From the IMG/VR virus record IMGVR_UViG_3300031566_000130, positions 1-41,358 of that record: DNA of 41,358 nt; one strand, 5' to 3'. The stretch is from a virus. Below are positions 5,260 to 33,157 of this stretch, piece after piece. Both the position numbers and the translations under genes were made by a program. The number at the start of each line of letters is the position of its first letter. The first letter of the stretch is position 1. The notes below the pieces were generated by a model. That model made no database searches, had not been told where the DNA came from, and saw nothing but the letters and a program-made list of their open reading frames with translations.

Positions 5260-5313
5260 AATCTTATTTTTTTAAATGTTTGTTTCTTAATTATTATCTC
5301 ATTTCTTATAGTA

Positions 5314-5344: not shown

Positions 5345-5410
5345 ATGTTTATTCAATCATCTTTATCTTTTATTTAAATAAATGCTTATTTGAAATGATT
5401 CTAAATAAAA

Positions 5411-5440: not shown

Positions 5441-5474
5441 GAGTCAAGGAAAAAAATAAAAAGTAAGTATGAAA

Positions 5475-7710: not shown

Positions 7711-7732
7711 TTTATTCAATATTAAAATAAAA

Positions 7733-7762
7733 ACCTATATACTTTAATATACAGGTTTTTTA
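7733..7762 (-). terminator. Hairpin upstream of the portal gene (weak terminator or attenuator)
   Basis: On the minus strand, AAAACCTGTATA and TATATAGGTTTT form a stem with one G-U pair around a short loop, followed by an AT-rich tract. It sits between the 63-aa gene and the portal ATG and may reduce read-through, lowering portal relative to capsid expression. That role is inference. Confidence 0.55.
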
Positions 7763-7778
7763 TTTGGTTTTTAAGAAA

Positions 7779-7970
7779 TTACTTTTTTTTCTTCGGTGTT
7801 TTTTTGTCAATTATCGGTTCGTCCTCAATCAAAGTGCAATGATTATTTAAAATAGCATCTGACAAATGGTTTGCCTCTTCGTCGCTTAATTCTTGCCCTT
7901 GAACCATTTTAACAACTCGACTCAATGAAGAAATAAAATAATTCCTTGTAATATTAGATATGTATTTCAT
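7779..7970 (-). CDS. Small head-region protein, 63 aa
   Basis: Starts MKYISNITRNYFISSLSRVVKMVQGQ. A helical middle 'ELSDEEANHLSDAILNNH' leads to a lysine-rich tail (DKKTPKKKK). It lies 19 nt after the 193-aa virion protein and ahead of the portal, so it is late and may be a minor structural or assembly protein. No family is recognised. Confidence 0.6.
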   Translation of the reverse strand: MKYISNITRNYFISSLSRVVKMVQGQELSDEEANHLSDAILNNHCTLIEDEPIIDKKTPKKKK

Positions 7971-7988
7971 ATTCTATAAGTTTAAAAA

Positions 7989-8570
7989 TTAAACGCCTAC
8001 AGTATCTAATCCTAATATCAAAGCTTCTGTTGTTGCTGCATCAGTGTCAAATACAGTGCAAGGCATTTTTGTTTCCTTAGCTCCATTATTTGCCGTCTTC
8101 AACTCAATTGGAATATTGTTCCCTTGGACTGGGTCTTGTGGGTTGAAGTTGTTAGCCATTAATTTCATTCCTTGGTCAGAACCGTACACAGATGCCCAAC
8201 CCGAATTTTGTAATACAACGGCAACAACTTTTCCAACACGCAAGGCATCGACATTATTACGATCTTCTTGATCGTTCGCAATGATTGACAGAGCTACGCC
8301 ATGATCGTACATATCAATGTTCCCTTCTTGTTCAATCAAAGGATTGGATAAAACAATGCCTGACTCGTCCCAAACTTCAAATTTCCAAGCTTTAACGCCA
8401 ACTGGGTTTGTAATTGCCGTAATTCGTCCAGCTGCATCTTTAACAACGTTCCCGCCGTTTTCCATCGTGCGCCAATCGCTGTACATATATAATTGAACGT
8501 ATGGTTTAATTCCGCCTGCCTTAACATTAGCGCAATTTGCTATTGTTCCTTTTGTCAATATACAAGCCAT
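7989..8570 (-). CDS. Virion structural protein (head or tail tube candidate), 193 aa
   Basis: The ATG at 8570 (MACILTKGTIANCANVKAGG) is preferred over the TTG at 8603 because it follows the previous stop by 1 nt. The sequence is beta-rich with little charge: 'YVQLYMYSDW', 'VKAWKFEVWDESGIVLSN', 'GKVVAVVLQNSGWASVYGSDQG', 'FDTDAATTEALILGLDTVGV'. A hydrophobic beta protein between the decoration-like protein and the portal could be a tail-tube or capsid-associated subunit. I cannot choose between these from sequence. Confidence 0.65.
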   Translation of the reverse strand: MACILTKGTIANCANVKAGGIKPYVQLYMYSDWRTMENGGNVVKDAAGRITAITNPVGVKAWKFEVWDESGIVLSNPLIEQEGNIDMYDHGVALSIIANDQEDRNNVDALRVGKVVAVVLQNSGWASVYGSDQGMKLMANNFNPQDPVQGNNIPIELKTANNGAKETKMPCTVFDTDAATTEALILGLDTVGV

Positions 8571-8571
8571 A

Positions 8572-8925
8572 TTATTTAGATTTTCGTGAGTAAGAGGCTG
8601 CAATGGTCGTGCTTTGAGTTCCTGAGCCTGTTAAGGTTACTCTGTAATAATCAAATGACAATGTGGTCCCTGCCGTTACTAGTGCGCTTACTCCGTCCGC
8701 AAGCGCTACTGGTGAATCAATGTTTACAAAAACAGAATTATCCAACGACCCTTGCAATTGTGCAGATATTGACAAAGTTCCTGTTACTTCTGTTGGAGTA
8801 ATTACGAAAGAAACAACTCCTTCAAACTCAGGTTCTACGTATCCGATTAAATCGTTTGGGTTTAATATTACAATACCTGCATCTGTTACGGTTGCTTCGG
8901 TAAATGGTTTATGTATTCTACTCAT
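8572..8925 (-). CDS. Small beta-rich virion protein (capsid decoration candidate), 117 aa
   Basis: Begins MSRIHKPFTEATVTDAGIVI. The middle is threonine/serine/valine-rich, 'VVSFVITPTEVTGTLSISAQ', 'DYYRVTLTGSGTQSTTIAAS', which looks like an immunoglobulin-like or jelly-roll strand pattern. It starts 11 nt after the capsid stop, the usual place for head decoration or fibre subunits. Assignment rests on composition and position only. Confidence 0.6.
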   Translation of the reverse strand: MSRIHKPFTEATVTDAGIVILNPNDLIGYVEPEFEGVVSFVITPTEVTGTLSISAQLQGSLDNSVFVNIDSPVALADGVSALVTAGTTLSFDYYRVTLTGSGTQSTTIAASYSRKSK

Positions 8926-8936
8926 AATTTTAAATT

Positions 8937-9896
8937 TTAAGCTGGTTTATAAAAAACAATATGTCCGCCATACCTATATTGTGCGTCTAACATCATATCA
9001 AAACGAACACCGTGTTTTTTTGACCCGTTCGCAATTGGAAAAACGTCAATAGCTCCCATTTCTTGATCGATGTTAAACCACATCGATAACACATTATTAT
9101 CAACCGTATTAGCTGCTATAATGTGATGTTCAGGAATGCCAATAAAGTGTTTAATCTTATGATTAAGAAACATATTTTTCAGTCCTGTGTCTAGTGCTCC
9201 AACGAATGCTTTTTGTACGTCATTTTCAGCTAAATTAAGCTTTCTCCAGTCTGGAGTACTTAAATTTATAGAGAAATTTGGATCGTCTAATTTTTCAGGC
9301 GGAATCAGTTTGTAAACATCTCTTAACCTATCGTAAATATTTGATTCTAAAATATTTCCTTGTGGATCTGCAGGTATAACATTACTGTCTGAATCAGCTT
9401 TCAATTTTTTTATAACACCGTCAATAAATCTCATTGGATTTGTTGGGTCTGAACTCTTCAGCGCTGTATCTCCTTGCCAAAATAATTTACTTAATTGTAA
9501 GTTTAGCCTATTCTTAACAAGCCTTAATATATCCATCTGGAACTTAGGCAATATTTTAATTTTGGTTAGTGGCCCGATAGACTTGTATTTGTCCCAAACA
9601 GGGATAAAGTCATCAGGTTTTAACAACAATGTAACCATTGCTTTTTCTGGGTTAAGTTCTCTCTTACCAACCGTAAATTGCGCCGAACCTCCACCAGTCC
9701 AATCTGGAGCGTCTTCGGTGTAATCCGTCATCGGATTTTCATCAGCTTCCCAATAATCTAGCTCTGTTTTTGTCGAAACACCAATTTTTAAAGATGCTCC
9801 GCCTTTTTCAATAACATCTAGCTCGATGCCTAACGCTTCATAGATAAATAAATCTAATTCACCGTTATAGTTTGTATTATTATATGTAACACTCAT
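8937..9896 (-). CDS. Major capsid protein
   Basis: 319 aa, beginning MSVTYNNTNYNGELDLFIYE. It starts 4 nt after the stop of the ClpP-like protease/scaffold gene, the standard protease then capsid order. Residues 55-85 (YTEDAPDWTGGGSAQFTVGKREL) look like the edge of an N-arm. The middle 'MDILRLVKNRLNLQLSKLFWQGDT' and the C-terminal 'GVRFDMMLDAQYRYGGHIVFYKPA' fit a capsid shell protein. No canonical HK97 motif can be verified by eye, so the identification depends mainly on gene order, length and composition. Confidence 0.75.
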   Translation of the reverse strand: MSVTYNNTNYNGELDLFIYEALGIELDVIEKGGASLKIGVSTKTELDYWEADENPMTDYTEDAPDWTGGGSAQFTVGKRELNPEKAMVTLLLKPDDFIPVWDKYKSIGPLTKIKILPKFQMDILRLVKNRLNLQLSKLFWQGDTALKSSDPTNPMRFIDGVIKKLKADSDSNVIPADPQGNILESNIYDRLRDVYKLIPPEKLDDPNFSINLSTPDWRKLNLAENDVQKAFVGALDTGLKNMFLNHKIKHFIGIPEHHIIAANTVDNNVLSMWFNIDQEMGAIDVFPIANGSKKHGVRFDMMLDAQYRYGGHIVFYKPA

Positions 9897-9900
9897 AGTA

Positions 9901-10926
9901 TTAGTTTTTTAGTTTTTTGCGATTTTCTTCAAGTCTTCTGTTTAATTCAGCTTGTAGCTCGTAATTATTCATTGACTTTGTTTGTTTTTGAACATCTTCC
10001 TGTCTAAACTCAGCCGTCGGCAATTCGGGTTCTGACTTCATTAACTTAGCTTCGTTTAACGCAGCCTCTAATTTCTTGAATCGCTCGTCAAGTTTTGTAT
10101 AGTTTTCTTCATACGCTTCAAGCTTTGTTTTTAATTCTTTTGTTTCGTCCTGAATTGCTATGTTAGCTTCAAGAATAGCAGTTTGAAAGGCTTCGAGTTT
10201 TTCAGCGTTTTTTGTATCAGCTTCAATTTTTTGGTTGTTTTCTGCTTCAATATCAACTTCAAACTCCGCTACACCTTTAAATCTCTCAGCTGCTGTTAGT
10301 TCTCTTTTAATTGTTCTTTTCATATTAATAGAATTTAAATTATTAATTCCTGTATTGTGATAAGCTGCAAGAACATTGCTGTATTGCGCTTCTAGTTGCT
10401 TTGTTGTTTCTAAATTGATTATTTTTTGAACAATGCCTAATTTTTTTGCTTGCTTTGCCGTAATAGTTAAATTAAGACGTTTCTCAGGGTCAAAAATTTC
10501 ATCGTATGAAGTTCCTGTTATTTTAATAAAAAGCTCTTCATTTACCTTATTTTCAAGCTTTTGCCTTAATTCTTTGTTTTTCTTATTTAACCAGTCTTGT
10601 TGGCTTTCGTCAAAAACCCATGTGTCAGCTCTATGTATTGTAATGTTCGCAGTTTCAACCGCTTCGACGTTATCCATAAAAAGCAACATATTGAACGCCA
10701 TGCTTGAAGCATCTCCAGTTATGATTGCATTATTCTTTGTGTCTGGATACATTTGTTTTCGCTTCGCTAGAGCTGTCAGCATTGCATAACCGTCGAACAC
10801 ACTTCCACCGCCTGAGTTTATCCAAGTTTCAGAATCTTCATTTTCAGGCAGTTGTATTAATTCCTCTGTAAATTCCTTTGCCCTGTATTCGTCAATCCTG
10901 CCATATAAAAAAATTGGTTTCTTCAT
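9901..10926 (-). CDS. ClpP-like head maturation protease fused to a scaffold domain
   Basis: 341 aa. Residues 1-170 are a ClpP/S49-type protease: 'WINSGGGSVFDGYAML' (oxyanion strand), 'ITGDASSMAFNMLLF' with the nucleophile probably Ser75, and 'ANITIHRADTW' with His98. 'TITAKQAKKLGIVQKI' matches the ClpP helix after the third catalytic residue, but the aligned position reads Asn (about N152) instead of Asp. Residues 210-341 are charged coiled coil (KLEAFQTAILEANIAIQDET and onwards), as expected for a scaffold cleaved after procapsid assembly. The capsid gene follows immediately. It is transcribed away from the plus-strand island. Confidence 0.85.
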   Translation of the reverse strand: MKKPIFLYGRIDEYRAKEFTEELIQLPENEDSETWINSGGGSVFDGYAMLTALAKRKQMYPDTKNNAIITGDASSMAFNMLLFMDNVEAVETANITIHRADTWVFDESQQDWLNKKNKELRQKLENKVNEELFIKITGTSYDEIFDPEKRLNLTITAKQAKKLGIVQKIINLETTKQLEAQYSNVLAAYHNTGINNLNSINMKRTIKRELTAAERFKGVAEFEVDIEAENNQKIEADTKNAEKLEAFQTAILEANIAIQDETKELKTKLEAYEENYTKLDERFKKLEAALNEAKLMKSEPELPTAEFRQEDVQKQTKSMNNYELQAELNRRLEENRKKLKN

Positions 10927-11050
10927 ATTTTGCTTACTTTATAATCGCAAATATACAAAAGTTTATTTAAACTGGTTCTAAATAAGCAGAATAAATGCAA
11001 TTTTATTTTTAAATTTAATTTATATTTTGTAGATTTGAATATTAATTTAA
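10927..11050. promoter_or_regulatory. Divergent promoter region between capsid operon and plus-strand island
   Basis: On the minus strand TATATTTG (10955-10948) lies 22 nt ahead of the protease ATG. On the plus strand TAGATTTG (11030-11037) lies 14 nt ahead of the ATG at 11051. Neither has a clear TTG box at the right distance. The interval also contains GGTTCTAAATAAGC, related to the TTCTAAA motif next to the other promoters, which suggests a shared regulator binding site. Confidence 0.6.
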
Positions 11051-11506
11051 ATGATAATTATTAGAATGAAAGGATATATTTACGCAGATACAAGACTTTG
11101 GGAGGTTTTCAATGATAAAAATGAAAGTATTGGTATTTTCATGTATGGTGATTTGATTGAAACATTTCGTGGGAAAGTTTTAAAAGACATCTACGAAGAT
11201 TTAAAAAAGAAAAACTATACCACAAAAATCATAGGCGATGTAATGCCTTACGAAATTGATAGTGAAAATCCTATAATCCAAAAAAAGAAACTTGAATTCA
11301 GGAAAAGAGAAGGTAGAAAAGAAAGAAAAATGGCTTTGAAAAAAGGGTATAAATTAGACAGCACAATAAAATTCGGTAAGCATTCAGGCACTAATATAAA
11401 AGACTTAATAGACAACCAAAAAAGCTATTGGAGTTGGCTTTTAAAAAATAACGTTTTATTGTTACACCCTGAAACAAAGGCGTATTCAGATACAGTACGT
11501 CGTTAG
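11051..11506 (+). CDS. Protein with an ExoX C-terminal-like motif, 151 aa
   Basis: First gene of the plus-strand island; an internal ATG at 11066 is an alternative start. The N-terminal part (residues 6-70) is unrecognised. Residues 77-100 are very basic (KKKLEFRKREGRKERKMALK). The C-terminal 'STIKFGKHSGTNIKDLIDNQ' plus 'SYWSWLLKNN' fits the small 'fGKykG..i.dl...yl.WL' domain found at the end of exodeoxyribonuclease X-like proteins and DUF3820 proteins. No exonuclease catalytic domain is present, so this may be a DNA-binding accessory protein. Confidence 0.65.
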   Translation: MIIIRMKGYIYADTRLWEVFNDKNESIGIFMYGDLIETFRGKVLKDIYEDLKKKNYTTKIIGDVMPYEIDSENPIIQKKKLEFRKREGRKERKMALKKGYKLDSTIKFGKHSGTNIKDLIDNQKSYWSWLLKNNVLLLHPETKAYSDTVRR

Positions 11507-11529
11507 TGGGTAATATAGTATTTAGCCAG

Positions 11530-11553
11530 TTTGAATATTAATTTAAATAATAA
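11530..11553 (+). repeat. Leader repeated before the first two plus-strand island genes
   Basis: TTTGAATATTAATTTAAAT followed by an A/T-rich run occurs here and at 11034-11056, directly upstream of the 82-aa and 151-aa genes. The shared leader suggests that a promoter/leader unit was duplicated along with gene acquisition, or that both genes are expressed independently under the same control. Confidence 0.6.
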
Positions 11554-11557
11554 CATT

Positions 11558-11806
11558 ATGGAAAAGAACAATCCGTTACTTACAAATATGAAAAATAAAG
11601 TGGAATCCTTACAAAGAGCTATTAATATGCTTTTAAATATGTGTAATGGTGGAACTGTTGAATTAAATTTCCCTTGTCATCAAGAATTTACAATAAAAGA
11701 AGAGAATAGAGAAAAATCATTAAATGAAACATTGCCAAAATTAATGAAAGAGCAAGAAAATTTAATCAGCAGGATTAGAAGGCAAGAACCTGATTATTAT
11801 TTTTAG
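11558..11806 (+). CDS. Hypothetical protein, 82 aa
   Basis: The ATG at 11558 is preferred over an upstream TTG at 11531, which lies within the repeated leader. The product (MEKNNPLLTNMKNKVESLQRAI...) is helical at both ends, with a middle 'MCNGGTVELNFPCHQEF' containing two cysteines. It is followed by a degenerate copy of the dispersed 3' element at 11823-11868. No family is recognised. Confidence 0.6.
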   Translation: MEKNNPLLTNMKNKVESLQRAINMLLNMCNGGTVELNFPCHQEFTIKEENREKSLNETLPKLMKEQENLISRIRRQEPDYYF

Positions 11807-11822
11807 TTTTTATTGTGCATAA

Positions 11823-11868
11823 CGAATACACTTACATTCAATATATAACTTTTTCAGTTGCGAATTAA
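11823..11868 (+). repeat. Degenerate copy of the dispersed post-gene element
   Basis: Begins GTGCATAACG 10 nt after the stop of the 82-aa gene and ends with TATATAACTTTTTCAGTTG, in the same order as the five better copies but with a diverged centre. Orientation relative to the preceding gene is the same as in the other copies. Confidence 0.5.
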
Positions 11869-11882
11869 ATAAAAATAACATT

Positions 11883-12032
11883 ATGGGAAAGCCAGAAGAA
11901 ATAAAAGAAAATAATCTAGAATACGCCCAAGAACAAATTGATAAGGCGTGTATTGAGAAAAATAAGGCAAAAGCCTTGTTGGCTGCTCGCTTGTGGGTAA
12001 GAATAAAGTATGAAGAATTTTTAAAAAAATAG
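11883..12032 (+). CDS. Small hypothetical protein, 49 aa
   Basis: ATG-initiated ORF beginning MGKPEEIKENNLEYAQEQID and ending IKYEEFLKK, predicted as one long charged helix. It ends 4 nt before the YopX-like gene and shares the leader sequence AAATAACATTATGG with the gene before it, supporting expression. Function unknown. Confidence 0.5.
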   Translation: MGKPEEIKENNLEYAQEQIDKACIEKNKAKALLAARLWVRIKYEEFLKK

Positions 12033-12036
12033 GATT

Positions 12037-12432
12037 ATGGGTGAGTTTAATAATAACAAAAGAATCTTTAAGTTTAAGCGTGTGTTTTTTAAAGATATGG
12101 AATGCACTGAGTTCTCGCATGCGAGGGATTGGGGTGTTGGCATTGGTGATTCTGAATTTACATCACCGTCAACGAATAATTTTGCCCCGTATTATAAAGA
12201 TTTTCAGTATTTTGAAATACGCGGGGTTCTATATTGTGAGGGCGACATTATCAATGTTGATAAATCGCACCCTGACGATGAAGATAGTTTTAAAGAAATT
12301 ATATTTGAAATAGGAATGTATCGGGCGAAAAGTAAAAAATATGACTTTTCATTCAACATAAATGATACATTATTACATCTTTCTCATAAAGTCGTCGGCA
12401 AGATCTACGAAAATAGTGACTTATTAAAATAA
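12037..12432 (+). CDS. YopX-like protein
   Basis: 131 aa beginning MGEFNNNKRIFKFKRVFFKD. The C-terminal 'LSHKVVGKIYENSDLLK' matches the conserved end of the YopX family (G.IyENpeLL). 'YFEIRGVLYCEGDIINVD' matches the central 'i.g.lYeGDIV' strand with an inserted residue. YopX proteins are widespread in phages and prophages of Firmicutes and Bacteroidetes, and their biochemical role is not established. Here it is one of five small plus-strand accessory genes. Confidence 0.7.
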   Translation: MGEFNNNKRIFKFKRVFFKDMECTEFSHARDWGVGIGDSEFTSPSTNNFAPYYKDFQYFEIRGVLYCEGDIINVDKSHPDDEDSFKEIIFEIGMYRAKSKKYDFSFNINDTLLHLSHKVVGKIYENSDLLK

Positions 12433-12450
12433 TTTAAAAATATATAAACT

Positions 12451-12693
12451 ATGAATGCAAAAAAAATGTTATCAGACAGCGGCTTAGACGATTTAGTTTT
12501 AAACAAAAAAAATATTACTGAAAATACCCCTGAAAGTTTTTGGAAAAGGTTTTATGCATCTGACATGATGGAGGCATATTTTAAATCAAAAACTTGTGAA
12601 ACCTGCAAGTACCTAAATAACGAAAATAATTACTGCCCAATTATCGAGCAATTTAACGATGTTGAATTTGGCTGCATTAATCATTGCTCTTAA
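12451..12693 (+). CDS. Small cysteine-rich protein, 80 aa
   Basis: Begins MNAKKMLSDSGLDDLVLNKK. The C-terminal half has six cysteines, 'CETCKYLNNENNYCPI' then 'FGCINHCS', which could coordinate a metal such as zinc or an iron-sulfur cluster. It is the last gene of the plus-strand island and ends directly before a bidirectional terminator. The first half is polar and helical. No family is recognised. Confidence 0.6.
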   Translation: MNAKKMLSDSGLDDLVLNKKNITENTPESFWKRFYASDMMEAYFKSKTCETCKYLNNENNYCPIIEQFNDVEFGCINHCS

Positions 12694-12694
12694 C

Positions 12695-12738
12695 GTAATA
12701 AAAAGGCGTGCAATAAACTACACGCCTTTTTTTATTAC
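12695..12738. terminator. Bidirectional terminator between the plus island and the tape measure
   Basis: GTAATAAAAAGGCGTG (12695-12710) and CACGCC-T7-ATTAC (12721-12738) pair around a 10-nt loop, with A and T runs on opposite sides. It serves both convergent units. The minus-strand side overlaps the very end of the tape-measure gene, whose stop codon is inside the hairpin. Confidence 0.9.
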
Positions 12739-15700
12739 AAATCAGCCCGTACCTCTGCAATTTTTTGACGTTCTTGCATTCTCGTAATATCTTCAACCTT
12801 AACACTAATATTCATATTTTCCAGAATAGTTTTTAAATCAGTCATTGAAATAGAATTATCTTGTTGAATAACTGAATTATTAGTATTTGCACTTGGATTC
12901 AAAATATTATCCGTTCCAGTCGCAAATTTTCTGTTTTGTTTTGGTGCTTGAATATTAAGCATAGAAGTTTTATAATCAGCTACTTTATTGATTGGAATCA
13001 CTGGCATTGCTTCACCTTTTTCAACTCGTCCAAAAACTTGACTATTTCCGCTCTTATCATATCCTACTACTGTAACATCGTTTCCGCTTGCGTGTGAACC
13101 TCCTATCTTCACAATATCGTCAGTTCCTTTGCCAAATTCAGGCATTTTTTTAGAAGCTACGATTCCAGCCTGAACCGCTCCAATTCCTAAAGCAATAGCA
13201 GAAAATGGCAATCCTCCAGTTACAACACTTGTAGCAACCGCCTTCGCCACCGCTTGAGCTGTTTGTATTGCAATCTGAACTAATGCATTAGCCTTATCCG
13301 CTTTAAATGCTTTTTCTTTTAATGCTTTTTCTTTCTTTGCGTATTCAGTCCGTATCTTTCCCTGTGCTGCTTCATTACCTTCATTTGCCTTTAAACTTTC
13401 TTCTTGCCATTTAGATAAATTTTCAAAGTCCTTTTGTCTAAGTGCTGAAATTCTGCCATATACTGCGCTTGCAGCTAAACCAGTCGCTCCAAATGCATCT
13501 TCTGCTGAAATTTCCTGTTTCTTGAATAAATCAGAAATATTAGTAGCTAAATCTGTGAATATCCTATTTTCTTCGCCTGCAAATTTTGCCGTCAGCTCTC
13601 CAATTTGCGTTAAATTCTCATTAACACGCTCAATTGTTTTAGCGTTCGCCTCTACTTGTTTTTCTTCATTAATAAGCCTATACTCTTCTTCTATTTCAAG
13701 TATTTTTAATTCAGTTTCATTTTTTAAAGCTGTCCTTTCTTCTGATAATAATGTTTCATTTGCTAAAGCGAGTTCAAGCTTTTCATTTTCAAACTGAATT
13801 AACTTATCTTTAATTTCCTCTGCAATCCTTAACCTTTCCGCTTCATTTTCTTTTGTTTTCTCTAATCTTTTTTGTTCGTTTTCTAATAAAAAAACTTCTT
13901 TGCTTTTGTCAAGTTCCTTAATTTTTTCGTTAGCCTTTTCAGTTCTACTTAATTGTTCATCGCTCAATTCTTTATCTAGTTTATTAAAATCTAAATTCCA
14001 TTGCATACGCTCCAACACAATTTCCCTTAGTCGGTTGTTTGCAATCTCGCTCAATCCTAGATTCTTCATTTTATTAGAAACAGTGGCGGCATCTGATGAA
14101 TTAATTAAGTCATTTATTTGTTCAGCCGTAACCCCGTATTGTTCATATGTTTTTGAAATTTCGTTTATATTTTCCTGAGTAGCAATTTTTAAAGCGTTTA
14201 AATTTGCTTTTCTTTTTTCAATGCTTAATTTGTCATTAGTTACATTTTCTTCGCCTACTGTTTTCATTTTATCGCCTATGTCGATGAGTTGATCAAGTCT
14301 AAGCTCAAATATATCTCGTTCTATTAGTCTTTGCTCTCTTAGATTATTCATTTGAATTAATGTATTCCGTGATTGAGTTTCCGTCAAAGCAACCTCCGCT
14401 TCTGCTTGTTGGTTCATTAACTCGGTTACATTCTCGCCAAAACTACGTCGCAAAGCTAATTCCTGATTAATAATATTGAGCCTGTTTTTTGCTAATTGTT
14501 CATCTTTTGCCGCTAATTCAACCGCAATTTTTGAAGCTTCTAAAGCTGCCTTTTTTTGTTCTAATGGATCTAAAGTGTCATCACCTGCGATTTGAGAAAG
14601 TTTTTCAAATTCAGCGTTTAAGACTGCAATATCCTTTGTTAAATTTCTGTTTGAATTTTGCACTGCTTTTTGTGAATCTACTAATTTAATCATTGCATCA
14701 GCATATTTAGCTGCCTGAATTGCTGTGTTTTCTATTTCAGTTGCTAATTCTTTTTGTTGGTCGGCGCTTAACCCTGTCTGCCATGAAATAAAAGCACGTC
14801 CAACTTTTTCGGCACTTTCTGCAAGCCCGTCCCAATCGGCAGTAACTAGATTTTTAACCGACTCCGCAAGTCCTTGAACTAATAACCAAGCGCCTTCTAA
14901 CCTGTTTATGAATGAATTAAGAATTAAGTCGCCCAATTCTTTAAGTGCTGTTTGTGGATCTACAAATAACTTTTCAAGCCATTGCGCCAATATTTCAGCT
15001 ACTTTAATAACTGCACCCATAGCACCCTCTAATGCTGCCGACCCTTTTAATAGCAATTTGCTTCCAGTTGCTGACTTTTGAAATGCTTTAAAAAGTAAAG
15101 CTAAAGCCGCCGCTACTGATGCAATCATTAAAACGAATGGACTAGCTAACAATGCTTTAAAGCTTTGCCCTAACATTTTAACCCCTGTTGCTGCGTTGCT
15201 GGTAGCCCCTGGAATCAGTTCCATGCCGTCAAGGGCTTTATTTATTGATTTTTCGTAGTTTCCTATATTTTTTGTATTGTCATTAAAAGCCTGTTTTTGA
15301 TTATTTATTTCTTCGTTCACGCCTGCTAATTTTTCTTTTAATTCGTTGTAAGCGTCCGAACCTATTTTAGTGTTTGAAATTTCTTTATTTAGCAAAGTTG
15401 CTTGAGTTTCTAGTTTTTTCAGCGTGTTAACCTCGCTTTTAATAAGCTTAATATTTGCACTCCTTTCGCTTTTTTGCTTACTAATTTCAATTGAGTTTTT
15501 AGCAATCTCAACATTGTTTGCATGAATCTTTTTGTTTAATTCAGTTGTTTGCTTAGTCATATTCTCAGCAGTAATTAATCCGTCTTGGTACTGCTTGTTG
15601 ACTTCCTGAATGCTTTTTTCGTGTTTTTTGTTTTCATTTCTTGCCTCCTTAACTCTGTTACTCATTGAGTCAATGGAATTTGTTAATAATTCCACTTTTT

Positions 15701-15764
15701 CGGCTGCTTTTTTTATCTCGTCGTCTTCGACCGTAATCTCTATTATAATCTGTTCGTCTGCCAT
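12735..15764 (-). CDS. Tail tape measure protein
   Basis: About 1009 aa from MADEQIIIEI (ATG at 15764); an earlier in-frame ATG at 15809 would add 15 atypical residues. Residues 15-190 are coiled coil. A hydrophobic segment follows ('ALLASPFVLMIASVAAALALLF'), and then hundreds of residues of charged helix. Near the C-terminus there is a second hydrophobic helix region ('ALVQIAIQTAQAVAKAVATS' and 'GGLPFSAIALGIGAVQAGIV'). Length, coiled coils and these hydrophobic helices are the signature of siphovirus tape measures, which set tail length and help DNA entry. By the usual 1.5 angstrom per residue relation it suggests a tail of about 150 nm. Confidence 0.88.
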   Translation of the reverse strand: MADEQIIIEITVEDDEIKKAAEKVELLTNSIDSMSNRVKEARNENKKHEKSIQEVNKQYQDGLITAENMTKQTTELNKKIHANNVEIAKNSIEISKQKSERSANIKLIKSEVNTLKKLETQATLLNKEISNTKIGSDAYNELKEKLAGVNEEINNQKQAFNDNTKNIGNYEKSINKALDGMELIPGATSNAATGVKMLGQSFKALLASPFVLMIASVAAALALLFKAFQKSATGSKLLLKGSAALEGAMGAVIKVAEILAQWLEKLFVDPQTALKELGDLILNSFINRLEGAWLLVQGLAESVKNLVTADWDGLAESAEKVGRAFISWQTGLSADQQKELATEIENTAIQAAKYADAMIKLVDSQKAVQNSNRNLTKDIAVLNAEFEKLSQIAGDDTLDPLEQKKAALEASKIAVELAAKDEQLAKNRLNIINQELALRRSFGENVTELMNQQAEAEVALTETQSRNTLIQMNNLREQRLIERDIFELRLDQLIDIGDKMKTVGEENVTNDKLSIEKRKANLNALKIATQENINEISKTYEQYGVTAEQINDLINSSDAATVSNKMKNLGLSEIANNRLREIVLERMQWNLDFNKLDKELSDEQLSRTEKANEKIKELDKSKEVFLLENEQKRLEKTKENEAERLRIAEEIKDKLIQFENEKLELALANETLLSEERTALKNETELKILEIEEEYRLINEEKQVEANAKTIERVNENLTQIGELTAKFAGEENRIFTDLATNISDLFKKQEISAEDAFGATGLAASAVYGRISALRQKDFENLSKWQEESLKANEGNEAAQGKIRTEYAKKEKALKEKAFKADKANALVQIAIQTAQAVAKAVATSVVTGGLPFSAIALGIGAVQAGIVASKKMPEFGKGTDDIVKIGGSHASGNDVTVVGYDKSGNSQVFGRVEKGEAMPVIPINKVADYKTSMLNIQAPKQNRKFATGTDNILNPSANTNNSVIQQDNSISMTDLKTILENMNISVKVEDITRMQERQKIAEVRADL

Positions 15765-15878
15765 AGTCTTTTTTTTTACAAATATAGTGTTTTTTAGAAT
15801 ATTAAGCATTTAGCTTATTTAGATTAATTATAAATAAACTATCTTTTGAATAATTAATAAAAATGATTGAATAAACAT

Positions 15879-15909
15879 TTTGCAGTCTCGTTTATATTTT
15901 GTATATTTG
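15879..15909 (+). promoter_or_regulatory. Early-type promoter C (plus strand copy)
   Basis: TTTG (15879-15882), 19 nt, TATATTTG (15902-15909). The block 15864-15930 is almost identical to the minus-strand promoters A and B, but here it drives a single plus-strand gene inside the virion region. It is the clearest evidence that promoter plus gene moved together as a unit. Confidence 0.85.
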
Positions 15910-15952
15910 TCCTATAAGAAATGAGAAAATAAACAACATTTAAAAAAACATT

Positions 15953-16441
15953 ATGAAAACATCAAAAGAAAACTATAAAAATTATATAGCTGGTATAATG
16001 TTCCCAGCTACGACTAGGAGCCAAAAAGACCAATTGGTTCTTTTTAAAAAAGAGTTGTTGAAAGCTTACGATGAGACTGAAGTTATCGCTCAGTTTGGCG
16101 ATGACTTCGATGGCTCCGAGGTTCTGGAAGTAACAGAAACTTTATATCAGGATATATTAGCGCATCCTACAAAAATTGAGGGTTTATTTTTCTTTCCATA
16201 CGAAATAAAACGTATGAAAGCAAAATATGAGACCCGTCGTTATAGTGAGCCAAAGTTTTATTATGAATGGATATCAAGGGGTATTCCTAATTTTCTCTTA
16301 AACGGGATAAAAAAGGATACCGTAGTGAGGATAAAAAAGGAGTATTACTCCGATAACCCAGAAATTTGTGACTGTTTCGAGATAGAAATTCTAAATGAAG
16401 AAGAGTTAAAAAATGCTGCTTTCAAATATTCAGGACTATGA
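15953..16441 (+). CDS. Hypothetical accessory protein, 162 aa
   Basis: Begins MKTSKENYKNYIAGIMFPAT. It contains a polar helical region 'QLVLFKKELLKAYDETEVIA', an acidic stretch 'FGDDFDGSEVLEVTETLYQD' and a basic aromatic region 'KAKYETRRYSEPKFYYEWIS'. It stands alone on the plus strand between two minus-strand virion genes, has its own early-type promoter, and is followed by the dispersed 3' element and a terminator. The unit is organised like a moron or accessory cassette. Function unknown. Confidence 0.65.
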   Translation: MKTSKENYKNYIAGIMFPATTRSQKDQLVLFKKELLKAYDETEVIAQFGDDFDGSEVLEVTETLYQDILAHPTKIEGLFFFPYEIKRMKAKYETRRYSEPKFYYEWISRGIPNFLLNGIKKDTVVRIKKEYYSDNPEICDCFEIEILNEEELKNAAFKYSGL

Positions 16442-16459
16442 GAGTGTTTAATTTGTGTA

Positions 16460-16489
16460 TAACATATATGTTTGTGTTTTGTATATAAC
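16460..16489 (+). repeat. Dispersed post-gene element, plus-strand copy
   Basis: A 30-bp sequence containing the 12-bp palindrome AACATATATGTT, 18 nt after the stop of the 162-aa gene. It is identical on the opposite strand to 18868-18897, 19341-19370 and 36704-36733, and similar to 32434-32463. The flank continues CTTTTTTCGTTGTACATGG, shared with the copy at 18850-18867. Confidence 0.9.
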
Positions 16490-16507
16490 TTTTTTCGTTG
16501 TACATGG

Positions 16508-16535
16508 ATAAAAAAAAGGGATTTACTCCCTTTTT
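16508..16535. terminator. Bidirectional terminator between the 162-aa gene and the small membrane genes
   Basis: AAAAAAAGGGA and TCCCTTTTTTT form an 11-bp stem with a 5-nt loop (TTTAC) and give U runs on both strands. The stop codon of the 53-aa minus-strand gene lies in the loop, so the coding region ends within the hairpin. Confidence 0.85.
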
Positions 16536-16684
16536 TTCTTTTTTAGCTCTTTTTGTTTTTTCTTAAACCGTCTTTTCGCAACTAATTCGCCAAGCGGCTT
16601 TTTAAAGAAAAAGAAAAATATATAAATGACAGCCGCAGGGAACAAGCTGTATAATATTAACGAAATAATTTCCATGATTTTCAT
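16523..16684 (-). CDS. Small membrane protein, 53 aa (lysis or tail-region candidate)
   Basis: Begins MKIMEIISLILYSLFPAAVI and continues YIFFFFF, a single transmembrane helix. It ends with a strongly basic tail (RRFKKKQKELKKKKRE). One membrane span plus a lysine-rich cytoplasmic tail resembles small holin-like proteins. The neighbouring 107-aa gene also has one membrane span plus a coiled coil, so together they are the best candidates for a lysis pair. No endolysin is recognisable nearby, so this remains a guess. Confidence 0.55.
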   Translation of the reverse strand: MKIMEIISLILYSLFPAAVIYIFFFFFKKPLGELVAKRRFKKKQKELKKKKRE

Positions 16685-16695
16685 AACTTACTTTT

Positions 16696-17019
16696 TTAAT
16701 TTTTATTGCTTTTTCTTTCGTCATACATCAAATTTACTAAACTTTCAGTTTTTGACGTGCTTAATCTTATATCGTTTATTTTTTGACTTATATTATATTT
16801 AAAGTCTGTTTGTTGCTGCTGTAGTAATTTAATGTCTTGTTTAATCGCTTTTAATTCTTCGTTGTTTTTCTCAACGTGTTCATTTAGCTTTTTATCTACA
16901 TTTTTAGAGTGTATAAACACCTCTCTAATTCCAAATTTTAAAGTTGCGATTGATGTTGCAATCGCAAAAATGAATGTTAAAAAATCTTTAAAATTAACCG
17001 AGCCTATAAATTCATTCAT
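16696..17019 (-). CDS. Membrane-anchored coiled-coil protein, 107 aa (holin-associated candidate)
   Basis: Begins MNEFIGSVNFKDFLTFIFAI. Residues 10-32 are hydrophobic enough for one membrane helix. Residues 38-100 are charged heptads ('DKKLNEHVEKNNEELKAIKQ', 'DIKLLQQQQTDFKYNISQKI'). This layout resembles XhlA-type holin-associated proteins. The start overlaps the end of the 567-aa baseplate-like gene by 4 nt, indicating coupling. Family identity is not certain. Confidence 0.5.
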   Translation of the reverse strand: MNEFIGSVNFKDFLTFIFAIATSIATLKFGIREVFIHSKNVDKKLNEHVEKNNEELKAIKQDIKLLQQQQTDFKYNISQKINDIRLSTSKTESLVNLMYDERKSNKN

Positions 17020-18719
17020 AATCTTAACATTATTAATTCACATTGTGTATTGTGTATATAGTTATTTATTTTCAAAATATAAAACGTTGCTTTCAAACTT
17101 TTTATATAAATTGTTCGAGTAAAATCAAAATTAAAAAAGTCGGAATTGTTTAATACTGCATTTACTTTATAAACTTCGCCTTTATTAATCGCCTGAATAA
17201 CATTTTTATAAAATTCAGCTAAAACATTATTTCCGTTTAGTTTTTTAAATCTTGCGATTGAGTAAGCAGCAACATTTTCATAATACGATAAAACACAATT
17301 AAAAGTGTTAATTCGTTCAGTATCGTTGTATATTGCAAAGTCTGAAATTGAATCAGTATTAATTAAAACTTCATTGCAAGCTGAAAAAACAGATTTATAA
17401 ACCTCTATTGATTTCTTTAGCGTTTCATTTTCAATATTAAAAACACCACGCCCAACGCTTGAACCGTCTTTATTGTTATATGCAAAATAATTACTTTGCC
17501 CAAAATTTGAAATATTTACTTTTTCTTCCGAGTTTTCAATAAACTTATGGGACCAGTCCAAAGCTGACAATTTGGAAATTTCGCCAAGTGAATTTATATA
17601 AATTTTCTTTCGTAAAGAGTCGGTTTTAAAAAGCCCTCCGATGGAATTTAAACAATTTTTGAATAATTCCTTTTGTGAAATGTTAGGAATATTATCATAG
17701 GTTTTAATTAAAAAATCTGTAAAGTTTGCAGCCGAAATATTTCCAAAATCAATTTCATTTATTAGCGTATAAATTCTGAAATCTTCTAAAACTAACGAGC
17801 CTGAACCAATAAAATTAAAATCTAAATCATAAGTTAAATCAGCTGTTTCAAAATCATTTGAAGTTAAATCGTAATAATTGCGCCCTTTATTTATTACAAA
17901 ATTTTGTGTTTCTGAATTAGCTCCGCCCGAACTAGTTCCCACTATTTGCAAAATTTGTTCGCTATCTGATGTTATGAAGCCTCTAAATCTTATTTTTGTT
18001 TTATAGTTTGTTCGTAAAGTGTACGAGGTTAGCACAGAATCAGTATAAATGAAGCTATATGAATCTAAGTTAATTAAACTTAATCCAATATTATTTACAG
18101 TTTCATTAAAAACTTTATCATAAGAAGTAAAGTAAAAAAACTCATGATTTGCTGAAATTATTAACTTGTTTAATAAATCAGATTTTAATGAAGTTTCAAA
18201 AGTCCATTTTTTCACATCAAATATTTTTTCTAAAAGTCTTTGGCAGGAAAATGAAGGACGTGAAAAAGCTAAATTATTACTAAGTATGTTTTTTGAAAGC
18301 GTTTTTTCTTCGTGATTGTTTATTGCGGACCACAGCCAAACACTTGAATTTAATGTTTTTTTGTTATTGTACTCGGTTAGGTTCAATACAAAATCCTGAG
18401 AATCTAAATCTAATTTATTTAAATTTTCATTCATTGCATCAAACAGCGCAATAGATGAATCTAGTAATAATATTTCGCTTTCCGTTTTTGCTTGGCTTGT
18501 TAAAATGGCAATCCCTTTAAATACAATAGAATTATTTTCTTTATATTTAAAACTATATAAAGTATTAAACTTCATAAACTTAACCTTCGGAATCGTTAAA
18601 GCTCTGGAAAAGTCAATTTTTTTGCTTTGCCAGTCATCAATAGAAAAAAAATCTTTATTCAAGACTATTCTATTTGCTCCAAGTTCAATGTTTATATTAT
18701 TTATTTCCAATTGTGCCAT
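17016..18719 (-). CDS. Large baseplate or tail-tip protein, 567 aa
   Basis: Begins MAQLEINNINIELGANRIVL. It has an N-terminal beta domain with 'DFSRALTIPKVKFMKFNTLY', as in tail hub proteins that start with a compact beta fold. A long beta-rich middle ('ILQIVGTSSGGANSETQNFV') is followed by a C-terminal region with repeated strands ending 'FYILKINNYIHNTQCELIML'. Size and neighbours (tape measure, small membrane proteins) fit a distal tail or baseplate hub protein of Bacteroidetes siphoviruses. No enzymatic motif was seen. Confidence 0.65.
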   Translation of the reverse strand: MAQLEINNINIELGANRIVLNKDFFSIDDWQSKKIDFSRALTIPKVKFMKFNTLYSFKYKENNSIVFKGIAILTSQAKTESEILLLDSSIALFDAMNENLNKLDLDSQDFVLNLTEYNNKKTLNSSVWLWSAINNHEEKTLSKNILSNNLAFSRPSFSCQRLLEKIFDVKKWTFETSLKSDLLNKLIISANHEFFYFTSYDKVFNETVNNIGLSLINLDSYSFIYTDSVLTSYTLRTNYKTKIRFRGFITSDSEQILQIVGTSSGGANSETQNFVINKGRNYYDLTSNDFETADLTYDLDFNFIGSGSLVLEDFRIYTLINEIDFGNISAANFTDFLIKTYDNIPNISQKELFKNCLNSIGGLFKTDSLRKKIYINSLGEISKLSALDWSHKFIENSEEKVNISNFGQSNYFAYNNKDGSSVGRGVFNIENETLKKSIEVYKSVFSACNEVLINTDSISDFAIYNDTERINTFNCVLSYYENVAAYSIARFKKLNGNNVLAEFYKNVIQAINKGEVYKVNAVLNNSDFFNFDFTRTIYIKSLKATFYILKINNYIHNTQCELIMLRL

Positions 18720-18804
18720 CGTTGCAAATTTAAGGAATATTTTTATAACTTATTGCAATTTAGCACAAAAAAAATGCTCCAATAATGACATGGAACATTT
18801 TAAA

Positions 18805-18897
18805 CAATCAATAAAATAATTATGAATATTGCAAATATAATTATTTTATCCATGTACAACTAAAAAAGTTATATACAAAACACAAACATATATGTTA
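18805..18897 (-). repeat. Two-block direct repeat, copy 1 (contains the post-gene element)
   Basis: The 45-nt block 18805-18849 is identical to 19278-19322. The 36-nt block 18862-18897 is identical to 19335-19370. The 12 nt between the blocks differ but the spacing is kept. Block 1 contains TATATTTG on the minus strand (18839-18832), preceded by a TTG 17 nt away, a possible promoter for the baseplate gene. Block 2 contains the 30-bp post-gene element (18868-18897), 8 nt after the stop of the 95-aa gene. Confidence 0.9.
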
Positions 18898-19231
18898 GCC
18901 GTAATTAATACGACCATAAAAACTTTACATCAATTTGCTTTCTTAAAATTTCAATTTCTGCATTTATTAGTTCAGATTTCCATTTTCCATTAAATAGAAA
19001 TTTCCCGATAAACGATTTGTAAAATTTTAATTTTTGTTTTAACTCAAAAATATGTTCAATCATTTCGATTATATTTGCTTCGTAAGCATCAAATTCCATA
19101 TTTGGAATTCCTATACTATTCATATTAAAATCTTTTACAGGAACTGTTTTCGTTACTTTTTTGCCTGTCTTAAATTTATTAAAATGTTTCATTTGATAAT
19201 TATTTAATGATTAATAAAATACGGCTAACAT
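18892..19231. repeat. 340-bp unit bounded by 12-bp perfect inverted repeats around the 95-aa gene
   Basis: ATGTTAGCCGTA (18892-18903) and TACGGCTAACAT (19220-19231) are exact inverted copies enclosing the 95-aa gene and almost nothing else. The left arm overlaps the last bases of the post-gene element. The arrangement suggests a discrete mobile or exchangeable unit without its own recombinase. Confidence 0.7.
18905..19192 (-). CDS. Hypothetical cassette-like protein, 95 aa
   Basis: Begins MKHFNKFKTGKKVTKTVPVK. A basic N-terminus is followed by helices 'EFDAYEANIIEMIEHIFELK' and 'KSELINAEIEILRKQIDVKF'. Helix content and charge suggest a small coiled-coil protein. The gene lies inside the 12-bp inverted repeats and between the two copies of the two-block direct repeat. 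Function unknown. Confidence 0.6.
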   Translation of the reverse strand: MKHFNKFKTGKKVTKTVPVKDFNMNSIGIPNMEFDAYEANIIEMIEHIFELKQKLKFYKSFIGKFLFNGKWKSELINAEIEILRKQIDVKFLWSY

Positions 19232-19277
19232 GCGGTTTAGCGTTCATTGCTTTTTTTCTGAAATTTAAACATTTACA

Positions 19278-19370
19278 CAATCAATAAAATAATTATGAAT
19301 ATTGCAAATATAATTATTTTATTTGTTTTGAACGAAAAAAGTTATATACAAAACACAAACATATATGTTA
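19278..19370 (-). repeat. Two-block direct repeat, copy 2 (contains the post-gene element)
   Basis: Second copy of the repeat at 18805-18897. Block 1 includes TATATTTG on the minus strand (19312-19305), a candidate promoter for the 95-aa gene. The 30-bp element is 19341-19370. The adjoining GTTATGTG (19367-19374) pairs with CACATAAC (19393-19400), giving a hairpin just after the DUF2829 gene. Confidence 0.9.
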
Positions 19371-19411
19371 TGTGCAACGAAAATAGACGCTACACATAAC
19401 GAAATCAATAA

Positions 19412-19888
19412 CTATTCTACAATTTGCCAATCTTCTGCAAATGTATCTGAGGAGCTTGCAACCCAACTATCAATAGTGTTGTCAGCTTTTACGATAATCA
19501 TTTGATTTTGATAATGAATTGATTTATCTCTATCAAAAAGAATGTCTTTTGCTTTTTGAGGCAATGAACTCATTTTAGGTATGATATTACAATAAATTTC
19601 AGCAGGAACTTGCTTACAAACAAACATACCCTTACCATTCCAACCTTTACGAGCAATACACTTGCCTTGTCTCATCGCTTCAATTGCTAATCCGAAAGTT
19701 AGCCCATCTGTAACTCTATAAGCCTTTTCAAAAACAGATTTTGGAGACCAAGACGTGTAGCCATCCTCATATACTACTTTATAGCCTTCTTCCATCATTT
19801 CAGCACTCATCTGTTTTGTTTCTTCTGCATTCCACCCTTTAATCGCTGGCTTTGCACTTACGATTTTAACACCTAAATAATTTTTCAT
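19412..19888 (-). CDS. DUF2829 (Tad2-like) protein with N-terminal extension; putative anti-Thoeris sponge
   Basis: 158 aa. Residues 63-158 carry the DUF2829 pattern: 'LTFGLAIEAMRQGKCIARKG' then 'WNGKGMFV', and a C-terminal 'NTIDSWVASSSDTFAEDW'. DUF2829 includes Tad2, a phage protein known to bind the glycocyclic ADP-ribose signal of Thoeris defence and so block it. Residues 1-58 ('KNYLGVKIVSAKPAIKGW', 'YEDGYTSWSPKSVFEKAYR') form an extension common in larger phage DUF2829 proteins. The gene is bounded by GTTATGTGCA/TGCACATAAC inverted repeats, in keeping with an exchangeable anti-defence cassette. Anti-Thoeris activity is inferred from family membership only. Confidence 0.8.
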   Translation of the reverse strand: MKNYLGVKIVSAKPAIKGWNAEETKQMSAEMMEEGYKVVYEDGYTSWSPKSVFEKAYRVTDGLTFGLAIEAMRQGKCIARKGWNGKGMFVCKQVPAEIYCNIIPKMSSLPQKAKDILFDRDKSIHYQNQMIIVKADNTIDSWVASSSDTFAEDWQIVE

Positions 19889-20135
19889 GTAAATAATATA
19901 AAATAATTTGCCTACTCTATTAAGTTCGATTTTCGGCTACCTCGAAAAGAAAACAAATAAAAATGCACATAACATTTTATTGGACGGCATTAGTGCGATT
20001 TAAAGAATCGAACTTTAATCAACCATTAACCGCTTAAAACTGCATTATTTTAACTAACTTACCCAGCCCCTCCAATTTTTTGAAAAAACGCCCCCGTTTA
20101 TAATTTATTTTTCGGGGCTGGGTTTTTTTTGTTTT
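19889..20135. other. Intergenic stretch with inverted ends and a long hairpin, no gene seen
   Basis: It contains TGCACATAAC (19964-19973), the partner of GTTATGTGCA at 19367-19376, and a small inverted repeat CGATT...AATCG (about 19998-20014). It also holds the GC-rich pair CCCAGCCCC/GGGGCTGGG (about 20067-20123). I find no ORF with a credible start. Confidence 0.6.
20066..20132. terminator. Large-loop hairpin ACCCAGCCCC / GGGGCTGGGT
   Basis: A 10-bp perfect GC-rich stem enclosing about 45 nt, followed on the plus strand by TTTTTTTT. The loop contains a second small hairpin (TTTTTTGAAAAAA). On the minus strand it follows the interrupted 66-codon gene. It could be a terminator working on the plus strand or a folded RNA at the end of the small-gene operon. 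Confidence 0.5.
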
Positions 20136-20744: not shown

Positions 20745-20789
20745 AATGTTTATTTTTTTAATGTGTTTATTTTCTCATTTCTTATAGGA

Positions 20790-20820
20790 CAAATATACAA
20801 AATATAAACGAGACTGCAAA
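20790..20820 (-). promoter_or_regulatory. Early-type promoter B (minus strand)
   Basis: On the minus strand: TTTG (20820-20817), 19 nt, TATATTTG (20797-20790). The block 20781-20873 is almost identical to promoter A, including CCTATAAGAAATGAG downstream and TTTAGAATCATTTC upstream. It drives the 67-aa, 48-aa and interrupted 66-codon genes. The terminator at 20888-20913 separates it from the tail operon. Confidence 0.85.
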
Positions 20821-20887
20821 ATGTTTATTTAATCATTTTTATCTTTTGTTTAAGTAAATGCTTATTTGAAATGATTCTAAATAAAAA

Positions 20888-20913
20888 AGCGCAATAAAAT
20901 TAATTATTGCGCT
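20888..20913 (-). terminator. Rho-independent terminator after the tail operon
   Basis: AGCGCAATAA and TTATTGCGCT form a 10-bp perfect stem around AATTAA. On the minus strand it is followed by TTTTTT. It lies 39 nt after the stop of the 141-aa gene and precedes promoter B. Confidence 0.88.
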
Positions 20914-28867: not shown

Positions 28868-29324
28868 AACTACAAATTAAATTATCAATTAAAGGCAAAT
28901 TAAAGGTAGCATTAATGCCTGACATAGTAGAGTTGTTTTCTCTATATACAGGCTTTGAACTCCATTTCTTAGCTGCATTGTTGGGTAAGTAAACATCTGG
29001 TCGCATGATTATGTGCCAAAAAACAGTATTCATTAAATCAGTCATTTGCTTAATGAGATTCAAAGAATGTTCTTCTGAATTTTCTGAATAATCTGGACTG
29101 TCCCATTCGTCGATAGTTAAAAATTTAATGCGATACTGGGTCGTATTAATTAACTCAGCACCATGTGTAAACTCTACATTAGAACTAAATTCAGGGTGTA
29201 TAATTATGTGCACCCCGTTCCAATTCAATGATTCCGATTCAGTTCTTCCTTCATTTAAGACGTGAATTGTTGCACTAGATTTTACTTTTATTAATGCATC
29301 TTTAATTAAATTGTATATTGTCAT
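28860..29324 (-). CDS. Tail-region protein, 154 aa (tail-terminator-like size)
   Basis: Begins MTIYNLIKDALIKVKSSATI. Contains 'NGVHIIIHPEFSSNVEFTHG', 'TTQYRIKFLTIDEWDSPDYS' and 'EHSLNLIKQMTDLMNTVFWH', consistent with the size and fold style of tail terminator or connector subunits. It overlaps both neighbours (4 and 8 nt), so it is translated in a coupled way. Identity uncertain. Confidence 0.5.
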   Translation of the reverse strand: MTIYNLIKDALIKVKSSATIHVLNEGRTESESLNWNGVHIIIHPEFSSNVEFTHGAELINTTQYRIKFLTIDEWDSPDYSENSEEHSLNLIKQMTDLMNTVFWHIIMRPDVYLPNNAAKKWSSKPVYRENNSTMSGINATFNLPLIDNLICSYE

Positions 29325-29818
29325 TTTTTATCAAAATTCAATACAGTTGCATAAGCATTTGCATTATTAATAACTTTTTTTATAAACTTCAATTCATCTA
29401 AGCTAAATTTAATTTTATTCAAATCGGCTTCAACGTCCAGAATTGCTTCTAACTCAGCATTATTGTACGAAGCCCTAATCTCTCCAAGTTCTTTTATTCG
29501 CTTATCTGTTCGTTCCTCTTCTTCAATTTCATCTAAAACAGATTGAATAAAATCAAAAATAGATGTAGAGTCCTCGTGATAGCCTCCAAACTCTACAATT
29601 AGTCTCCCAACTCCAAGTCTTAAATTGCAAGTGTGATACTTAGAATGTTGGGGGTTAGGATGTTGGTAATGTGTATCATCAACTATATCTACATTAAACT
29701 TTTCTCTAATAAGGTCTACGGCTTCAAAAATACAAGTGTGAGCCCCATCGTTAAATAAAATGGGCTTATTAAAAGCAAGCCTACTAAATAATATCCTTCT
29801 TTTTCCTTCAATTGTCAT
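29321..29818 (-). CDS. Hypothetical protein, 165 aa
   Basis: Begins MTIEGKRRILFSRLAFNKPI. It includes 'HYQHPNPQHSKYHTCNLRLG', a histidine-rich stretch, followed by acidic helices ('FIQSVLDEIEEEERTDKRIK', 'LEAILDVEADLNKIKFSLDE'). The histidines could bind metal. It lies between the 105-aa gene and the 154-aa gene. No family is recognised. Confidence 0.5.
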   Translation of the reverse strand: MTIEGKRRILFSRLAFNKPILFNDGAHTCIFEAVDLIREKFNVDIVDDTHYQHPNPQHSKYHTCNLRLGVGRLIVEFGGYHEDSTSIFDFIQSVLDEIEEEERTDKRIKELGEIRASYNNAELEAILDVEADLNKIKFSLDELKFIKKVINNANAYATVLNFDKK

Positions 29819-29822
29819 GTTG

Positions 29823-30140
29823 CTACTTTTTATCTGATGTTAATTTTTTCAATTTTCTCAAAACCCCTAAAACTGTATGATTATATGAAAGTGGAAACAT
29901 TTCTACTATCTTAAACTCTAATTCTCCGTTGTCATTGAAACCTACCTTTATTAAGCGATCAAACAAGTAAAAATTTGTTTGCTTAATAGGACTTGATAAA
30001 TTTAATATAATTGGTCTTGTGTCATACTTTTTTTCAAGTTTTTCGATAAAAATACGAAGTTCTTTTATGTCAAAAAAATAAATTAAATCATCTTTTTTAA
30101 AAAACTCCATTGCTATTTTTTTCTTTTCTTCTTTTTTCAT
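29823..30140 (-). CDS. Hypothetical protein, 105 aa
   Basis: Begins MKKEEKKKIAMEFFKKDDLI. Lysine-rich and helical at both ends, with a short beta core 'RPIILNLSSPIKQTNFYLFD'. It immediately follows the frameshift pair and may be a tail chaperone partner or structural protein. No family is recognised. Confidence 0.5.
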   Translation of the reverse strand: MKKEEKKKIAMEFFKKDDLIYFFDIKELRIFIEKLEKKYDTRPIILNLSSPIKQTNFYLFDRLIKVGFNDNGELEFKIVEMFPLSYNHTVLGVLRKLKKLTSDKK

Positions 30141-32433: not shown

Positions 32434-32463
32434 GTTATATGCAAAATGTAAACATATATGTTA
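32434..32463 (-). repeat. Dispersed post-gene element, diverged copy
   Basis: Three or four substitutions from the consensus of the other copies, but the palindrome AACATATATGTT is intact. It lies about 14 nt after the stop of the 191-aa gene. The neighbouring GTTATGTG (32460-32467) has an inverted partner at 33093-33100. Confidence 0.85.
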
Positions 32464-32476
32464 TGTGCAACATAAA

Positions 32477-33052: not shown

Positions 33053-33092
33053 GATATAATTTGATTAAAGAATTAATAAAATAAAAAAAATA

Positions 33093-33157
33093 CACATAAC
33101 AGCGGTTTTGTAAACATTCCGCTGCGCTCCACGTTTCAAACCCGTGGTCGTTATGCA
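33093..33157 (-). repeat. Three-way-junction-like hairpin (attC-like) after the 85-aa gene
   Basis: It abuts the stop codon of the 85-aa gene. Outer pair CATAAC (33095-33100) / GTTATG (33150-33155), with two inner hairpins: AGCGG (33101-33105) / CCGCT (33119-33123), and CCACG (33129-33133) / CGTGG (33143-33147). The 65-nt length, the AAC/GTT ends and the location after a gene resemble integron attC sites. The exact attC consensus is not met. Confidence 0.6.

Follow-up and report, generated by a model that had tools for sequence, protein, structure and literature searches.

In bacteria, integrons are known to store antibiotic-resistance genes and, as recognised recently, phage-defence genes. 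The ends of their cassettes vary among units and match within one: once recombination has taken place at G^TT, the cassette starts with TTRRRY and ends with the complementary R'' box. Sedentary chromosomal integrons store defence genes (Darracq et al., 2025, as cited in PMC13064858). Cassettes are also found in phages, and IntI1 can recombine attC2 of Polaribacter phage P12002L with attI1 (Qi et al., 2023; PMC9892861). In P12002L the pair GTTAGGCAC/GTGCCTAAC encloses an annotated methyltransferase (29248-29973), which is the same anatomy as that of the units described below.

The sequence analyzed here (the window) is one virus record of 41,358 bases in which a gene of the anti-defence family Tad2 is enclosed by inverted ends. 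The best reading is that this gene is probably carried in an integron-type cassette in a phage of Bacteroidota, with the integrase supplied in trans.

Genomic Setting and Cargo Protein

The two ends of the window share a 129-nt repeat with 99% identity, as in a circular contig. With its genes for a terminase, a portal, a maturation protease and a tape measure, the window represents a tailed phage, which also encodes a RecE-type exonuclease. Its host most likely belongs to the Bacteroidota, because the 12 portal matches in the phage collection were Cellulophaga, Bacteroides and Tenacibaculum phages and one record named 'Bacteriophage', and because an RNA leader of Bacteroidota type is present. 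A 267-nt direct repeat with 90% identity (4553-4819 and 6640-6906) covers part of the portal gene and part of a nearby 155-aa ORF. Two intergenic repeats, one of 122 nt with 95% identity (5291-5412 and 20767-20888) and one of 47 nt in three copies (at 32363, 33438, and 37790), resemble shared promoter regions, and one of these two marks the junction in a related contig (L266) without the 85-aa and 191-aa unit.

The 158-aa gene at 19412-19888 on the minus strand had been described as a Tad2-like DUF2829 gene in an earlier note, and its identity as Tad2 was upheld by Pfam, PDB and fold matches and by conserved residues. The protein matched Pfam PF11195 with an E-value of 5.9e-20 and 72 bits (cut-off 25), and the sequence of the solved structure SptTad2 (8wjd) with an E-value of 1e-20. 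In a Foldseek comparison with an AF2 model of pLDDT 89, all 24 PDB matches at E ≤ 0.001 were Tad2/AcrIIA7 structures; the best was SptTad2-cGG (8wjd; E 3.8e-11, 39% identity), and HgmTad2 and ModTad2 with hisADPR were also matched. The Tad2 domain comprises residues 61-158, while residues 1-60 form an extra N-terminal part beyond the PDB matches. The kept residues F65, G66, A68, R80, G82, W83, N84, G85, K86, M88, W142, S145, D148, D153, and W154, with the R-K-G-W-N-G-K-G loop among them, are all 15 invariant across 23 homologues, and a long insertion aligns with SptTad2 and HgmTad2. The protein is predicted to be a signal sponge that binds Thoeris signals of the cyclic-ADPR type. Because of the long insertion it may perhaps also bind cyclic dinucleotides of CBASS, so that a dual anti-Thoeris and anti-CBASS action is a prediction.

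Inverted Ends of the Tad2 Unit and Its Neighbours

The 10-bp inverted pair described around the Tad2 gene is exact (GTTATGTGCA at 19367-19376 and TGCACATAAC at 19964-19973) and extends to a perfect pair of 12 bp (ATGTTATGTGCA at 19365-19376 and TGCACATAACAT at 19964-19975). In the sense of the gene, on the minus strand, the pair search places an R'-type box, G^TTATGTGCA, at the cassette start (19964-19973) and an R''-type box, TGCACATAAC, as its exact partner at the cassette end (19367-19376). Taken alone, however, a 10-bp pair does not exceed chance expectation in a genome so rich in A and T: 238 inverted pairs of 10 bp spaced 200-1300 bp were seen, while shuffled sequences gave 200 ± 21, and the window has 2 GTTA-anchored 10-bp pairs with 0.77 expected. 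By this shuffle test the pair is not significant on its own.

These counts would suit an explanation by chance or transcription signals only, in which the ends have arisen by coincidence because the DNA is AT-rich, or belong to a terminator, and no mobility is involved. A second, 8-bp partner of the Tad2 end box, nearby at 19391-19400 within the 3' flank of the gene, also fits this explanation and could form a local hairpin 3' of the stop codon. The Tad2 pair is nevertheless meaningful, because it is anchored to a repeat (family D2) that follows five stop codons, the fifth copy being on the other strand. In gene sense the repeat reads xxxxxxTAAC-ATATATGTTT...ATATAAC, and the bases preceding TAAC vary among the five copies. 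For two of the five, the reverse complement of all ten bases is present upstream of the gene concerned; the numbers of exact matches expected there, anchored to the repeat, are 0.0013 for Tad2 and 0.0006 for a 95-aa gene. A third copy matches over 8 bp (9/10) and two have no partner, leaving three of the five without an exact 10-bp partner. With such expectations for two adjacent units, and with the gene replaced at the same slot in the related contig L265, chance or transcription signals only are highly unlikely as an explanation.

The second perfect unit, which had escaped the earlier note, is the adjacent 95-aa ORF (18905-19192, minus strand) with its own pair GTTAGCCGTA/TACGGCTAAC. The anchored pair test places its R'-type box, GTTAGCCGTA in gene sense, at 19220-19229 and its R''-type box, TACGGCTAAC, at 18894-18903, both on the minus strand. 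A 112-nt element 3' of this cassette (18786-18897, minus strand) is 88% identical to 19259-19370 and has homologous sequence in L265. A third, cassette-like unit is formed by a 191-aa ORF (32477-33052, minus strand), which is absent from L266. The 8-bp pair noted around it earlier was found again and can be read as 9/10 (GTTATGTGCA at 32460-32469 and TACACATAAC at 33091-33100); its R'' box and repeat were located by repeat and pair search at 32434-32469 on the minus strand. Neither the 95-aa nor the 191-aa protein gave an informative family match, and only one relative of the latter was found.

Between the 191-aa ORF and an 85-aa ORF (33158-33415, minus strand), which is likewise absent from L266, lies a short attC-like site (33091-33160, minus strand) with a match to the attC model R1 (see below) and a two-hairpin fold (z -2.3). 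The 85-aa ORF runs into this site and ends inside it, and gave weak matches to CARF models (PADLOC, E 1e-4). CARF is the cyclic-oligoadenylate-binding domain of type III CRISPR signalling. The two repeat copies without a partner are found after a 264-aa ORF (36704-36739, minus strand), where the R'' box TGTGCATAAC has no matching R' within 1300 bp, and after a 162-aa ORF at 15953-16441 (16454-16489, plus strand), where the R'' box TGTGTATAAC has no matching R' and L265 carries another gene. Two DNA methyltransferase-like ORFs (35504-36205 and 37843-38610, minus strand) are situated near the 36.7-kb repeat.

Ends that differ among units and match only within their own unit, a feature absent from the earlier note, point to integron attC logic. 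A G^TTRRRY-like start with a complementary end is present in the Tad2 and 95-aa units at 10/10 positions (12/12 with flanks) and in the 191-aa unit at 9/10, the boxes GTTATGT and GTTAGCC being a loose fit to GTTRRRY. Short perfect inverted ends around single genes could also be those of a transposon or of another element with inverted repeats, mobilised by an unidentified enzyme, but the ends of neighbouring units differ, no flanking target duplication was seen and neither a transposase nor a tyrosine recombinase was found in the cassette units of the window, which makes such an element extremely improbable.

The attC anatomy in the window consists of predicted folds, at 33091-33160 and at the excised Tad2 circle, whereas R1 matches are not significant. 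The candidate attC that separates the Tad2 cassette from the 95-aa one (19220-19376, minus strand) is predicted to fold with R''/R' and L''/L' pairing in its excised-circle form only, with -23.0 kcal/mol (z -2.4) compared to -17.6 kcal/mol (z -1.1) for the linear form. As expected for a cassette, no TTTG-TAnnTTTG promoter was present within 250 bp upstream of Tad2. The 5' untranslated region of the gene contains a DUF805b RNA leader (Rfam RF02914; 19909-19946, minus strand; 42.3 bits, E 3.3e-11, above the gathering score). This element was matched in 107 of 296 Bacteroidota genomes, and at the loci examined an ATG often follows it after 20-30 nt. The leader is therefore a general one in Bacteroidota and its being part of cellular cassettes is unsupported; a cassette pair surrounded it at none of 30 loci, in only part of which the motif was located by the script.

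A Cassette Array in a Second Tad2 Phage

A second Tad2 cassette was identified in G001 (IMGVR_UViG_3300049855_000239, 72.7 kb), in which Tad2 is 46% identical to that of the window over the best segment. By its predicted endolysin, RecE-type exonuclease, DnaB and replication initiator genes, G001 is a phage. Profile searches with PF00589 gave no tyrosine recombinase match in G001 or in the window genome, and thus no complete integron in either. At least 14 cassettes whose ends match were identified in G001; almost all of them follow one another directly, with Tad2 as the last of the run, and 15 own GTTA 10-mer pairs were counted in 20 kb with 0.42 expected. The phage arrays in PMC9892861 are smaller. 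One of the at least 14 cassettes carries a cytosine DNA methylase domain (PF00145; L144, G001 bases 1-20000).

Paired attC stems are present in G001. Eleven inter-cassette sites fold alike, and the stems covary, with 36 double-change cells, where shuffling gave 11.5 and sliding no more than 14. At attC sites set by a covariance model, and not by the pairs, ends of the same cassette matched at 4.93 of 6 variable bases, while the ends of a linear attC matched at 2.53.

The covariance model R1, trained on the G001 sites, gave no significant attC in the window, where the best match (33091-33159; 14.1 bits, E 0.19) is at the expected place. Among 296 Bacteroidota genomes, 19 gave R1 matches. On one Bacteroidota chromosome, G190, about 25 attC-like R1 matches are found on one strand within 75 kb (L260-L263; G190:C1:3225532-3297622), in an array that starts beside a 406-aa tyrosine recombinase (L253:1132-2352) scoring 211 bits against integrase_gron (cut-off 265). 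This array is likely a large chromosomal integron.

Gene Turnover in Related Phages

Downstream of the slot, the contig L265 (IMGVR_UViG_3300031578_000532) can be aligned to the window over 2.4 kb, with 83% identity. At the position of the Tad2 and 95-aa genes it carries one 117-aa ORF between the matching ends TTATGTGC (301) and GCACATAA (724). A homologue of the window's repeat comes next, and at the 16.4-kb repeat L265 has a different gene than the window. The contig L266, from the same sample as L265 and with a terminase 94% identical, is without the 85-aa and 191-aa ORFs. Gene turnover thus takes place at these slots. Together with the second phage that has a Tad2 cassette, the swap in a relative strengthens the idea of a cassette-like unit put forward in the earlier note.

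Downstream of the R'' box the L265 sequence is homologous to the window backbone, and because this sequence is common to both, the exchange in L265 could be due to homologous recombination. The units might accordingly be homology cassettes, in which the repeats after stop codons act as recombination anchors, genes are swapped by homologous recombination and the matched ends are integron relics or coincidence. The repeats carry promoter- and terminator-like parts and the phage has its RecE-like exonuclease; the 112-nt repeat follows both the Tad2 and the 95-aa unit, and the L266 junction is within a repeated TAATTTATATTG.TTCTAAA element. The repeat is also confined to this phage lineage in the collections scanned: exact and degenerate scans of viral and genome collections gave only the related contig L265, and the repeat body was found in none of 395 Bacteroidota genomes, so that no donor integron was identified. 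Homologous recombination at the repeats, however, leaves unexplained why the ends of two units match only their own starts, and why the same end rule is seen in G001 and P12002L. Taken as the whole explanation it is considered unlikely.

The presence of repeats around the homologous gene in relatives was confirmed in part. A convincing pair of its own surrounds Tad2 in the window and in G001, but not at the other Tad2 loci checked; an AT-rich GTTTATTTCT pair in the Tad2 locus L007 was left out of this count. A cassette as typical of Tad2 was thus rejected, and it is a property of the window phage and G001, not of the Tad2 family.

Discussion

In the integron-type reading, a circle made up of the Tad2 gene and an attC-like site would have been inserted at a G^TT junction, and this insertion would have produced the complementary, cassette-specific ends TTATGTGCA at the start and TGCACATAAC at the end. 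Because the phage is without a tyrosine recombinase, the integrase would act in trans, its source being an integron-bearing Bacteroidota host or a co-resident element. The shared repeats have probably also served in later exchange by homologous recombination. We infer that the cassettes are moved by the integrase and that Tad2 is expressed and binds its ligand.

A broader picture is possible, but more tentative: a Bacteroidota phage lineage that takes in and exchanges integron-type cassettes at several loci, where repeats act as fixed landing sites, with a recombinase borrowed from the host, may hold a rotating store of counter-defence genes including Tad2, and G001-like phages may hold arrays of more than 12 cassettes. 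That a closely related phage carries another gene where the window has Tad2 suggests that phages collect counter-defence genes via a bacterial gene-capture system. If this is true, both sides of the phage-host conflict would draw on one such system. We hypothesize that the cassette neighbours of Tad2 are candidate anti-defence genes. In practice, matched ends of this kind could be used to pick out small phage genes of unknown function that merit testing for counter-defence.

Phage-borne integron cassettes are already known, but no earlier report of signal-sponge cargo, and no literature joining Tad2 and integron cassettes, was found in the open-licence literature. Within the Tad2 family (SPO1 Tad2, SptTad2, HgmTad2/AcrIIA7, and ModTad2), the window protein is alike in fold and invariant residues and shares the long insertion with SptTad2 and HgmTad2, but it adds ∼60 N-terminal residues to the solved structures and is carried in a cassette. 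In sedentary chromosomal integrons, as cited in PMC13064858, cassettes are likewise vehicles in the phage-host conflict, whereas the window cassette is phage-borne, with a cargo whose predicted role is to counter defence. The CALIN of P12002L, attC clusters without an integrase, resembles the window in that single genes with own-matched G^TT ends are found in a Bacteroidota phage with no phage integrase, and in that the cargo, in P12002L DNA methyltransferases, is plausibly directed against host defence. In contrast to P12002L, the attC bodies of the window are AT-rich, lineage-specific and poorly detected by the covariance model, their attC status being predicted, and the cargo is a Tad2 signal sponge.
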